Shown: positions 4,828 to 7,584 of the stretch, piece after piece
Layout: each line of letters starts with the position of its first letter
How positions within the stretch are numbered: the first letter of the stretch is position 1
Source: Salipiger thiooxidans
GTDB lineage: Bacteria; Pseudomonadota; Alphaproteobacteria; Rhodobacterales; Rhodobacteraceae
Length of the DNA: 64,000 bases
Assembly (NCBI RefSeq): GCF_900102075.1
Contig: NZ_FNAV01000013.1
Span: forward strand, 62,001 to 126,000
Direction: 5' to 3'
The notes under the pieces: model-generated
What the model was told of the DNA's origin: nothing
The model's input: only the letters and a program-made list of their open reading frames with translations
Database searches by the model: none
Made by a program: the position numbers and the translations under genes

Positions 4828-4890
4828 TTCATCTTGCAAGGTAAACTCCGGGGGTGAGGCGCGGCACGCGCCGAGGGGGCAGAGCCCCCT
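4828..4890 (-). repeat. Dispersed intergenic repeat, long copy B
   Basis: Reverse orientation of copy A: TTCATCTTGCAAGGTAAACT, then CCGGGGGTGAGG, a GGCGCG/CGCGCC stem and a GGGGGC-AGA-GCCCCC hairpin. The last two bases overlap the TAG stop of the DUF4130-UdgX gene (4889-4891), so the hairpin may also act as its terminator. The pair A/B forms a large imperfect inverted repeat. Confidence 0.8.
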
Positions 4891-6313
4891 ATTTCCCCAG
4901 AATCTCGGCCGCACGACGCAGGTCGGCCTCGAAGGCCGCTTCCGCGGCCGCGCGCTCGATCGCGGGCAGCCGCAGCAGGTAGGACGGGTGCACGGTGACC
5001 AGCACAGGCGTGCCCTCCGCCGTCTGCTCGACGCCGCCGCGCCGGGTCAGCAGGCCGCGGCGGTCGCCGGTCAGGCTGTCCAGAGCGGTGGCCCCCATGG
5101 CGAGGATCAGCCGCGGCTTCACCTGCGCGCGCTCCAGGTCCAGCCACCAGCGGCAATGCTGGATTTCTCCCTGTGTCGGCGACTGGTGAATGCGGCGCTT
5201 GCCGCGGGCGGCGAACTTGAAGTGCTTCACCGCGTTGGTGACGTAGGCGCGCGCCCGGTCGAGCCCGGCCCGCGCCGCGACCTCATCGAAGAGCTGGCCC
5301 GCCGGGCCCACGAAGGGCCGGCCCTCGAGATCCTCGAGATCGCCCGGCTGCTCGCCCACGATCATCAGCGGCGCATTCAGAGGCCCCTCCCCCGGCACCG
5401 GCTGGGTGGCGTTTTCCCAGAGCGGGCAGCGGCGGCAAGCGGCGAGCCCCGCGGCGAGATCGTCGCCCGGCTCGGGCACCCGGGCGGCGCGCAGCCGTTC
5501 GCCGATGCGCTCGGCGCGCAGGGGCGCCACCATGGGCGCGGCGGCGGCCATCTCGCGGGCCCGTGCCTGAGCCGAGGCGACCATCTCGGGGATGAGCGCG
5601 GTCTCGGGCATGTTGCGCCAGTATTTCTTCGGCATCTCCGCCTGCATCGCCTTCAGCTTCACCCGCGCGGGATTGAAGATGTTGCGAAAATAGGTGCGCC
5701 AGAGATCCTCGGCCGCGTCCTCGGGCAGGTCGGGTCGCGCCGCCGCGGCGCCGAAGCGCAGCGTGCCCGCCTCGAAATGCGCCGAGAGGTCGGGGGTGAG
5801 GATCGACCAGTCCATGTCGCCGAAGCGCCGCACGAAGAAGGGCGCGGTCAGCTCGAGGATGTGGTGCGACGGCTCGAACCACGCGGCGAAGCGCCGGCGC
5901 CCGGCCTCCGCATCGCCCAGCTCGCGGAAGCGCACGAAGGCGGTCATCTTGTGGCGGTCGCGGCGCACCTCCTTGGCCATGCGCTCCAGCCGGTCGACCA
6001 GCGGGTCGGCGCGATCCTCGAGCAAGCGCCGGTCGCGGCCCAGCGCCCAGAGCAGCGCGTAGAGCCGTGCGAAGCGCTCGGGGTCGGCGTGGCAGACCGC
6101 CAGCCGGGCGAGATCCACGAAACCGCGGGGCACCGTCACCGCGCCGCCTCCGGGCGTGGGCGCCGCCGCGGGGGCGCCCGCGAAGAGGTCGGCCTCGCCC
6201 GCCCCGCGCTGCCAGAGCACCTCTTCGGGTGGTACACCCTCGGCCAGCAGCGCCCGCGCCTCGTCGCGCCAGCCCTCGAAGGTGCCGATCTCGGGAAGCA
6301 CCACGCAGCGCAT
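4889..6313 (-). CDS. DUF4130-UdgX fusion: uracil-DNA glycosylase that can crosslink to uracil DNA
   Basis: A 474-residue two-domain protein. Residues about 1-250 form the DUF4130 domain found beside radical-SAM repair proteins. Residues about 285-474 form a UdgX-type uracil-DNA glycosylase with motif A GEQPGD (320-325), GRPFVGPAGQ, and motif C VHPSYLLR (441-448). The UdgX hallmark KRRIH is at 372-376; His376 corresponds to the histidine that bonds covalently to the sugar after uracil removal in the Mycobacterium enzyme. C293xxC296 and Cys387 fit the 4Fe-4S ligands of this class. The start overlaps the stop of the upstream radical-SAM gene by one base (TGATG), so the two are translationally coupled. 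The DNA substrate in this organism is inferred. Confidence 0.92.
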   Translation of the reverse strand: MRCVVLPEIGTFEGWRDEARALLAEGVPPEEVLWQRGAGEADLFAGAPAAAPTPGGGAVTVPRGFVDLARLAVCHADPERFARLYALLWALGRDRRLLEDRADPLVDRLERMAKEVRRDRHKMTAFVRFRELGDAEAGRRRFAAWFEPSHHILELTAPFFVRRFGDMDWSILTPDLSAHFEAGTLRFGAAAARPDLPEDAAEDLWRTYFRNIFNPARVKLKAMQAEMPKKYWRNMPETALIPEMVASAQARAREMAAAAPMVAPLRAERIGERLRAARVPEPGDDLAAGLAACRRCPLWENATQPVPGEGPLNAPLMIVGEQPGDLEDLEGRPFVGPAGQLFDEVAARAGLDRARAYVTNAVKHFKFAARGKRRIHQSPTQGEIQHCRWWLDLERAQVKPRLILAMGATALDSLTGDRRGLLTRRGGVEQTAEGTPVLVTVHPSYLLRLPAIERAAAEAAFEADLRRAAEILGK

Positions 6314-7548
6314 CAGATCAGCTGCAGCTGCTCGGGCGGCGGCGCGAAGCGGGCGCGCAGGTCTGCGGCGTCGCCCAGCGCCCGCGGGCGCCAGTCGAGC
6401 AGGGTGATGAAGGTCTTGGCCTGCTTGAGGTTCGCCCCCATCCGCCGCAGGTCCTCGTAGCGCAGGGTGCGGTGACCCCGCGTGGCGAGGATCCGGCCCA
6501 CGGTCTTGGTCCCCAGGCCCGGAACCCGCAAGAGCGTCTCGCGCTCGGCGCGGTTCACGTCAACCGGGAACAGGTGCCGGTTGGCCAGCGCCCAGGCGAG
6601 CTTCGGGTCAACCTCAAGATCCAGCAGCCCGCCGGCAGTGGAGGCGGCGATCTCCTCGACCCCGAAACCGTAGAAGCGCAGCAGCCAGTCCGCCTGATAG
6701 AGCCTGTGCTCGCGCATCAGCGGCGGCTTGATCAGCGGCAGCGCGGCAGAGCTGTCGGGGATCGGCGAGAAGGCCGAATAATAGACCCGCTTCAGCCGAT
6801 AGCTCGAATAGAGTCGGGTCGAGGTCCGCAGGATCGTCGCGTCATCGGCACCGTCGGCCCCGACGATCATCTGCGTCGACTGGCCCGCGGGGGCAAAGCG
6901 CGCCGGCCGCTTGCCGGTGAAGCTGCGCTCCTTCCGGGCCTCGCGCTTCAGGCGGACGTCGGCCATGGCGCGGCGGATCTGGTCCGGGCTCTTCTCGGGG
7001 GCATAGGATTGCACGGCGCGGTCGGTGGGCAGCTCGACGTTTACCGAGAGGCGGTCGGCGTAAAGCCCCGCCTGCTCGATCAGCTCGGGCGTGGCGTCGG
7101 GGATGGTCTTGAGGTGGATGTAGCCGCGGAAGCGGTGCTCGGTCCGCAGCATCCGGGCGATGCGGACCATGTCGCCCATGGTCTCGTCCGGCGAGCGGAT
7201 GATCCCCGAGGACAGGAACAGCCCCTCGATGTAGTTGCGCCGGTAGAACTCCAGCGTCAGCGTCACGACTTCCTCCGGCGAGAACCGCGCCCGCTCGACG
7301 TTCGAGCTCACCCGGTTCACGCAATAGGCGCAGTCGTAGATGCAGAAGTTGGTCATCAGGATCTTGAGCAGGCTGATGCAGCGCCCATCCGGCGCGTAGG
7401 CGTGGCAGATGCCCGAGCCGGTGGTCGAGCCGAGCCCTTTGCCATCGCGCGAGTCGCGCCGCTGCCCCCCGCTCGAGGCGCAGGAGGCGTCGTATTTTGC
7501 CGCGTCCGAGAGGATCGCAAGTTTCTGATCGAGAGTGAGTCTTGCCAT
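6313..7548 (-). CDS. Putative DNA modification/repair radical SAM protein with C-terminal HhH motif
   Basis: A 411-residue radical-SAM enzyme. The cluster-binding CxxxCxxC is C69, C73, C76 (NFCIYDCAYCVNRV). The N-terminal KYDASCASSG and GICHAYAPDGRC segments are typical of the family encoded next to UdgX/DUF4130. Near residues 345-375, LLRVPGLGTKTVGRILATRG is a helix-hairpin-helix DNA-binding motif. It is first in a two-gene operon with the UdgX fusion. The ATG at 7548 has no Shine-Dalgarno sequence; a -10 box ends 6 nt before it, so a leaderless mRNA is likely. A LexA box covers the promoter, suggesting induction by DNA damage. The reaction is not known for this family. Confidence 0.9.
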   Translation of the reverse strand: MARLTLDQKLAILSDAAKYDASCASSGGQRRDSRDGKGLGSTTGSGICHAYAPDGRCISLLKILMTNFCIYDCAYCVNRVSSNVERARFSPEEVVTLTLEFYRRNYIEGLFLSSGIIRSPDETMGDMVRIARMLRTEHRFRGYIHLKTIPDATPELIEQAGLYADRLSVNVELPTDRAVQSYAPEKSPDQIRRAMADVRLKREARKERSFTGKRPARFAPAGQSTQMIVGADGADDATILRTSTRLYSSYRLKRVYYSAFSPIPDSSAALPLIKPPLMREHRLYQADWLLRFYGFGVEEIAASTAGGLLDLEVDPKLAWALANRHLFPVDVNRAERETLLRVPGLGTKTVGRILATRGHRTLRYEDLRRMGANLKQAKTFITLLDWRPRALGDAADLRARFAPPPEQLQLI

Positions 7549-7550
7549 GT

Positions 7551-7565
7551 GTTCATGATATGTTC
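7551..7565 (-). promoter_or_regulatory. LexA (SOS) box of alphaproteobacterial type
   Basis: GTTC at 7551-7554, seven bases, GTTC at 7562-7565: an exact GTTC-N7-GTTC direct repeat, the LexA operator known from Rhodobacter and other Alphaproteobacteria (GAAC-N7-GAAC on the gene strand). It begins 3 bp upstream of the radical-SAM start codon and covers the predicted -10 box. It is the only perfect copy I found in the intergenic regions of this window. Confidence 0.75.
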
Positions 7566-7584
7566 ACATGGCTCGCCGGATCAA
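7555..7584 (-). promoter_or_regulatory. Promoter of the radical-SAM / UdgX operon
   Basis: Read on the minus strand: TTGATC (plus 7579-7584), an 18-bp spacer, TATCAT (plus 7555-7560). The predicted transcription start falls at or next to the ATG at 7548, in keeping with the lack of a ribosome-binding site. The LexA box overlaps the -10 element, a standard repression geometry. Confidence 0.5.

Follow-up and report, generated by a model that had tools for sequence, protein, structure and literature searches.

What does a radical S-adenosylmethionine (SAM) enzyme do beside a glycosylase of a type that crosslinks itself to DNA, and when are the two made? The question is raised by two genes on the minus strand of a 64,000-nucleotide window of Salipiger thiooxidans (contig NZ_FNAV01000013.1, positions 62,001 to 126,000; coordinates below are those of the window unless otherwise indicated). 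The first codes for a radical-SAM protein of the family TIGR03916 with a helix-hairpin-helix (HhH) motif, and the second for a DUF4130 domain fused to a uracil-DNA glycosylase (UDG) domain of the UdgX type (Table 1). Each part scores above its curated NCBIfam cut-off (TIGR03916: 581.3 bits, cut-off 343.5; TIGR03915/DUF4130: 214.5 bits, cut-off 112.25, with 138.2 against 27 for the Pfam model; TIGR03914/UdgX: 309.5 bits, cut-off 189.95), and the 411-residue protein additionally matches Radical_SAM (PF04055). NCBIfam already labels all three families putative repair proteins, TIGR03916 as 'putative DNA modification/repair radical SAM protein'. Taken as a whole, the locus is probably best explained as a LexA-repressed operon for a replication-associated complex that processes DNA lesions. 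The original prediction, made from the letters of the window, had proposed a two-gene operon with an overlapping TGATG; the two open reading frames (ORFs) do overlap by one base, and comparison with 121 alphaproteobacterial loci, in which the intergenic gap is -1 in 71 and -4 in 18, upholds the operon of a radical-SAM/HhH gene and a DUF4130-UdgX fusion gene.

The regulatory part of this explanation starts from an exact GTTC-N7-GTTC, the LexA-type box of alphaproteobacteria, which ends 2 nt upstream of the first start codon. The window holds a single copy where 1.18 are expected by chance (at least one in 70 of 100 shuffles), so that a lone box is no evidence and the case rests on comparison; the whole genome has 135 copies, and 53 of the reversed pattern. 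Of the 121 alphaproteobacterial loci, 117 have an exact box in the 200 bp before the radical-SAM start. Among the 80 named ones, 77 have it within 60 bp of the start and the remaining three have it with one mismatch, as against two of 1361 other ORFs in the named loci (at least 150 aa, spurious ORFs included). In a further alphaproteobacterial set it was found within 250 bp upstream in all 23 loci, in opposite orientation in eight. The 121 loci are not all independent, since some genomes are present twice (the pairs L009/L020 and L018/L022 at the least); among 115 promoter stretches, 113 are distinct. A fragment of the same gene (L019) was excluded from all box counts, and matches below cut-off (L123-L127) and a viral contig (L133) from all counts. 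Two promoters (L055 and L173) carry two exact boxes each, at offsets -50 and -17 and at -43 and -19.

In a sample of 398 Pseudomonadota genomes the radical-SAM family is above cut-off in 84, about one fifth; all 29 of these from outside the class were examined and, of those within it, the loci that were listed. The alphaproteobacterial box was not found within 250 bp upstream in the 29 loci outside the class, 19 of which have, no more than 60 bp from the start, an exact CTGT-N8-ACAG (the LexA box of the E. coli type); five more have it with one mismatch. Across 28 of these loci (115,348 bases) that pattern has only four other exact copies. For one genome outside the class (G679) only the box was counted; six cysteines and a QMGLWG tail were seen in its protein and were not added to the counts below. 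Three loci of one genus that have no LexA-type box (L191, L192 and L216) share an inverted repeat, TCTCAT-CCA-ATGAGA, about 20-40 nt before the radical-SAM start, which is possibly the operator of a different regulator. In the source genome itself the alphaproteobacterial box precedes both lexA (match C27:49115-49804; box C27:49069-49083, 31 nt before an ATG) and recA (about 96 nt upstream of the profile match).

The gene pair hence appears to follow the LexA box of its own host group, the alphaproteobacterial one in that class and CTGT-N8-ACAG outside it, and to judge from these upstream sequences LexA almost certainly controls the operon. The original prediction had read the box correctly, and it is the orthologues that lift it far above chance; its claim of SOS control had been staked on conservation of the box upstream of orthologues, and withstood that comparison, with the E. 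coli-type box in the relatives outside the class. The opposing view, that the match arose by chance and LexA does not control the operon, could point to the 1.18 copies expected per window and the 135 in the genome; the conserved position in alphaproteobacterial orthologues and the replacement by the E. coli-type box outside the class disfavor it so strongly that we give it next to no credence. LexA-type control across groups with differing LexA boxes would tie the pair to DNA damage.

The box was also predicted to lie over the -10 element of the promoter, and TATCAT does fall within it on the minus strand, in a promoter of the form TTGATC-N18-TATCAT. In an alignment of the 113 distinct promoters on the box, the commonest TTG start, seen in 49, is 18 nt ahead of the box, and TATNNT is favored inside it, with a 17-bp spacer; a TTG starts at box offsets -19 to -16 in 91 of 116 orthologues versus 109 of 1740 control windows. 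In 62 of the 116 the start codon begins exactly at the predicted transcription start, and in 96 it falls at -2 to +5. Since only two bases separate the box from the ATG in the window, a ribosome-binding site of the usual kind would not fit there. We accordingly predict, from these alignments, that in alphaproteobacteria the transcript starts at or near the ATG.

The radical-SAM family TIGR03916 is presumably the same as COG4277. SOS control and the gene association are not new, because SOS control of a UDG/COG4277 pair has already been published (PMC8565304). That paper describes COG1573 and COG4277 as a two-gene operon with LexA-type motifs in Bacteroidetes, and states that a UDG system of this kind had been reported to be SOS-regulated in Verrucomicrobia and Alphaproteobacteria, for which it cites Erill 2016 and da Rocha 2008. 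The operon studied here shares with that system the two families and the LexA-type motifs; the available part of PMC8565304 treats it as uracil-glycosylase repair and does not discuss radical-SAM chemistry or the sliding clamp. None of the literature matches listed (for the family names, for COG4277, and for SOS control or gene neighborhood with radical SAM and UDG) assigns a reaction to the radical-SAM family. We likewise know of no reaction assigned to TIGR03916, nor of an established cellular role for the crosslinking UdgX. In family scores, gene order and pairing the window operon resembles the TIGR03916/COG4277 and TIGR03915 pair at large, with no difference in kind, and the tail and extra cysteines described below are features of the whole TIGR03916 family, not peculiarities of the window.

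Which parts of the operon belong together by necessity is answered by its composition elsewhere. In 120 of the 121 loci a DUF4130 gene follows downstream (the 121st is cut by a contig end), in 117 within 100 nt (it is 558 nt downstream in L017, and in L016 and L022 the distance is set by a frameshift); a partner match is downstream in all 51 further loci. In a sample of 385 genomes from the class, 25 have TIGR03916 above cut-off and 25 have TIGR03915, with 24 in common; of the two unpaired genomes, G081 is explained by a contig end, and in G218 the radical-SAM gene is reduced to its C-terminal part. The locus of the latter (L123, 1477-1884), with a DUF4130 gene after a C-terminal radical-SAM remnant (135 aa, tail GGQLELEL), looks like a decayed operon. 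The UDG domain is visible in 102 of 120 partner proteins; two (L017 and L076) are cut by the end of the stretch or contig and do not count as lacking it, and 16 have none though their DUF4130 gene ends normally, with at least six gains or losses of UDG on a quick tree of 116 radical-SAM rows. UdgX exceeds its cut-off in 34 of the 385 genomes: it is fused in 17 operons, lies elsewhere in two genomes that have the operon but no fusion, and occurs in 15 genomes that have no radical-SAM/DUF4130 pair. With DUF4130 pairing nearly universal and UDG missing from 16 operons, we take the core unit to be radical SAM plus DUF4130, with UdgX as an accessory. The original prediction had the radical-SAM protein acting together with the UdgX fusion, of which the DUF4130 portion emerges as the obligate partner and the UDG portion as optional.

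These counts also bear on the idea that the radical-SAM/DUF4130 pair releases UdgX once it has crosslinked itself to abasic DNA and so allows it to turn over. The shared operon, the fusion of the partner, and the covalent bonding of UdgX to abasic DNA (PMC10359453, available part) speak for it; the 16 operons without UDG, the 15 genomes of the class with UdgX and neither partner, and the at least six changes on the tree all go the other way, and we hold it to be very unlikely. As a core function, rescue of UdgX crosslinks is disfavored by the operons lacking UDG and by UdgX occurring without the pair. A further candidate, that DUF4130 is itself a degenerate UDG, was rejected (hhalign probability 0.1%, from small alignments), and DUF4130 gave no match to Protein Data Bank sequences at E-values up to 10.

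Where the UDG domain is present, comparison indicates that its catalytic residues are retained. The crosslinking histidine, the motif-A glutamine and the motif-B histidine, counted below, are the residues described for M. smegmatis UdgX, which bonds covalently to abasic DNA (PMC10359453, available part). The UdgX part of the window protein is 45-48% identical to, and superposable on, the M. smegmatis UdgX structures; the AlphaFold domain against 6l6s_B gives a target-normalized template modeling score of 0.93 and a root-mean-square deviation of 1.2 Å, and the GEQPG, KRRIH and HPS motifs are common to both. The solved chains, of about 205-230 residues, are the UDG domain alone, whereas here it is fused to DUF4130 in a radical-SAM operon. 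A Foldseek search with the fusion model returned UDG-type entries among the best 50 of 363 matches, one of them a polymerase that has such a domain by its match range. The histidine of the KRRIH motif, correctly placed at residue 376 by the original prediction, is kept in 101 of the 102 orthologues with a UDG domain, the motif-A glutamine (Q322) in 99 and the motif-B histidine in 100, with E321, R374, H376, H442 and R448 each kept in 99-102. L092 (labelled Gluconacetobacter liquefaciens) is alone among the 102 in having a glutamine for the crosslinking histidine (TERIQ), and is a candidate non-crosslinking UdgX. Three Paracoccus proteins (L069, L073 and L077) have GEAPG in motif A in place of GEQPG and keep the R-loop histidine.

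Turning to the radical-SAM protein, the CxxxCxxC motif already recognized in the original prediction (C69/C73/C76) is kept in all 175 homologues. Three further cysteines, C23, C48 and C57, are each kept in 174 of the 175, including sequences from Fusobacterium, Parabacteroides and Acinetobacter, and all three are absent together from the sole exception, a protein from plasmid 1 of Gemmatirosa kalamazoonensis (L128, 3501-4763). We lean towards a second iron-sulfur (Fe-S) cluster at these three positions, on the strength of their conservation. The Gemmatirosa protein, 39% identical, is also without the clamp-like tail, and no DUF4130 match was found beside its gene, a joint absence that we count in favor of the explanation preferred here; it probably belongs to another subfamily and could serve as a negative control. 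The proteins of L018 and L022 (both Alloyangia mangrovi) were excluded from the protein alignments, and L064, L076, L088, L095 and L098 were left out of the structure alignments. The radical-SAM gene of L018/L022 is probably frameshifted near its start, through sequencing error or decay, since it is matched twice, in different frames, by overlapping parts of the profile.

With its CxxxCxxC motif and its link to DNA damage, the protein resembles the spore photoproduct lyase SplB, and one might suppose a direct reversal in which a thymine dimer or spore-photoproduct-type lesion is split while UdgX takes uracil from deaminated cytosine in dimers. SOS-type boxes and an HhH motif are compatible with this. 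NCBIfam gave TIGR03916 alone, returning no SplB model at E-values up to 0.001, and a spore photoproduct lyase is absent among the best 50 of 1211 Foldseek matches, for which the query model is of moderate quality; the HhH motif, tail and three extra cysteines are on the window protein's side only. Membership of SplB is not supported, and we consider such a reversal unlikely. The Foldseek leaders among those 50 are MgmA, MiaB, LIAS, AprD4, RimO and HydE; several of these carry auxiliary clusters, but at E-values of 7e-5 to 1e-3 the matches are weak evidence.

The end of the radical-SAM protein suggests where it might work. The consensus of beta-clamp-binding peptides is QL[SD]LF. The window protein ends in PPPEQLQLI, and its relatives mostly have QLSLF or QLSLL at the extreme C-terminus. 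A pattern Q-[LMVI]-x-[LMIV]-[FLIMV] occurs in the last 12 residues of 132 of 141 alphaproteobacterial proteins, at the extreme end in 120. Over all homologues (L122, at a contig end, excluded) a widened pattern is found in 166 of 174, versus 97 of 8700 shuffled tails and two of 1084 other ORFs (at least 200 aa). For the stricter QL[SD]L[FL] the figures are 77 of 174, four of 8700 and none of 1084, respectively. Seven of the eight that miss the wide pattern end in QASLF-, QGSLF- or QGALF-like sequences, and the eighth is the Gemmatirosa protein. Since a conserved C-terminal peptide sits behind a variable stretch, docking on the clamp is its simplest reading, and we think it likely that the radical-SAM protein docks in this manner. 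We know of no radical-SAM enzyme that rides the replication clamp, and no search was aimed at one. In DinB the C-terminal residues 347-351 bind the clamp, and ImuB has a clamp-binding motif (PMC3901139, available part). Both combine LexA control with a clamp-binding peptide, but are polymerases or relatives of these, whereas the window protein is a radical-SAM enzyme for which clamp binding is predicted.

The distribution of the family is patchy. Its gene is present in 18 of 61 relatives and in 15 of 20 genomes of the genus, the closest named species by protein being Salipiger mangrovisoli (91% identity) and Alloyangia mangrovi (90%), and 158 plasmid records have a member of the family. The gene also occurs, whole or in part, in ten 'phage' records, these being gut fragments and two 240-kb Acinetobacter records, of which the latter may be plasmid-derived because the gene of a 539-kb A. 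baumannii plasmid (L130) is equally identical to the query (50.8%). This patchiness (25 of 385 genomes of the class above cut-off) and the plasmid records would suit a DNA-modifying or anti-phage system, in which the enzyme adds a group to DNA and repairs nothing, and several of the nearest folds carry auxiliary clusters and attach sulfur or methyl groups. PADLOC, however, returned no family at E-values up to 0.01, and no neighbor beyond the operon recurs in more than 13 of the 80 named loci, save one cluster found at 27 whose example lies on the opposite strand, over the second operon gene. LexA-type control of the kind common to lexA and recA also fits repair better, and we regard modification or phage defense as decidedly improbable.

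Repair at the replication fork, the explanation that we prefer, could then run as follows. LexA bound to the box would cover the -10 element just upstream of the predicted start of a leaderless or near-leaderless mRNA, and DNA damage would remove it. The radical-SAM protein would grip DNA through its HhH motif and dock on the beta sliding clamp through its QLxL[FLI] tail; if it does dock there, it would therefore work at or behind forks. A 5'-deoxyadenosyl radical would be made near the putative auxiliary Fe-S site, and the enzyme and its obligate DUF4130 partner would act on damage to a base or sugar, the most plausible target being a pyrimidine or a uracil derivative; that the substrate is a DNA lesion seems to us likely. 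The optional UdgX domain would remove uracil and then lock onto the resulting abasic site. In its most specific form, as a clamp-tethered radical-SAM repair enzyme with a second Fe-S cluster at SOS-stressed forks, partnered by DUF4130 and optionally by a self-crosslinking UdgX that traps uracil and abasic sites, the proposal is tentative, and we regard it as possible rather than probable.

Several observations count against parts of this explanation. Neither type of box was found in five of the 29 loci outside the class, and TTAG-N6-TACTA, the Xanthomonas LexA box, was not found in these five. The AlphaFold model of the radical-SAM protein has a mean pLDDT (predicted local distance difference test) of 74 and falls below 50 at residues 23-34 and 39-50, around the extra cysteines. 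The HhH motif claimed in the original prediction is present in weak form, below the HHH_3 cut-off (19.4 bits against 27) and with weak RuvA/ComEA profile matches (best E-value 0.016). As for the tail, the wide pattern was widened after the tails had been inspected, under half of the proteins (the 77 of 174) fit the narrower one, and the window's own QLQLI is a looser, weaker form of the motif, with pLDDT below 50 at residues 409-411. Finally, the main texts of PMC6473078, PMC12700426, PMC13384398 and PMC12907096 (SOS/LexA, Dinoroseobacter/Caulobacter) have no mention of radical SAM, uracil or glycosylase.

Table 1. Features of the operon and its promoter in the window, in the direction of transcription
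Feature	Positions	Strand	Remarks
-35-like TTGATC	7579-7584	minus	18 bp before -10
LexA-type box	7551-7565	minus	exact GTTC-N7-GTTC GTTCATGATATGTTC; in operon direction GAACATATCATGAAC
-10-like TATCAT	7555-7560	minus	inside LexA-type box
Predicted transcription start, A of ATG (leaderless)	7548	minus	7 nt past -10; position deduced
Radical-SAM/HhH protein, TIGR03916	6313-7548	minus	411 aa; first gene of operon
Three extra cysteines C23, C48, C57	7378-7482	minus	candidate auxiliary Fe-S site
Radical-SAM CxxxCxxC, C69/C73/C76	7321-7344	minus	kept in 175/175 homologues
Helix-hairpin-helix, residues 329-357	6478-6564	minus	HHH_3 score under the cut-off (19.4 vs. 27 bits)
QLQLI, residues 407-411, sliding-clamp-binding-like motif	6316-6330	minus	motif type conserved in homologues
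TGATG stop/start overlap	6311-6315	minus	base 6313 common to both ORFs
DUF4130-UdgX fusion	4889-6313	minus	474 aa; TIGR03915 residues 10-238, TIGR03914 residues 240-467
His376 of R-loop KRRIH (M. smegmatis UdgX H109)	5186-5188	minus	crosslinking position

Of the flanking genes examined, those on one side are an ABC (ATP-binding cassette) transporter, hemE and hemC, and the opposite side has a quinone reductase; by NCBIfam none of them is repair-related. For the family itself, the clamp-docking tail, if it is one, would tell where the radical-SAM enzyme works, and the three near-invariant cysteines point to the cofactor to look for. The pairing statistics, in turn, indicate that DUF4130 would be needed in any assay of the enzyme and that UdgX would be dispensable.

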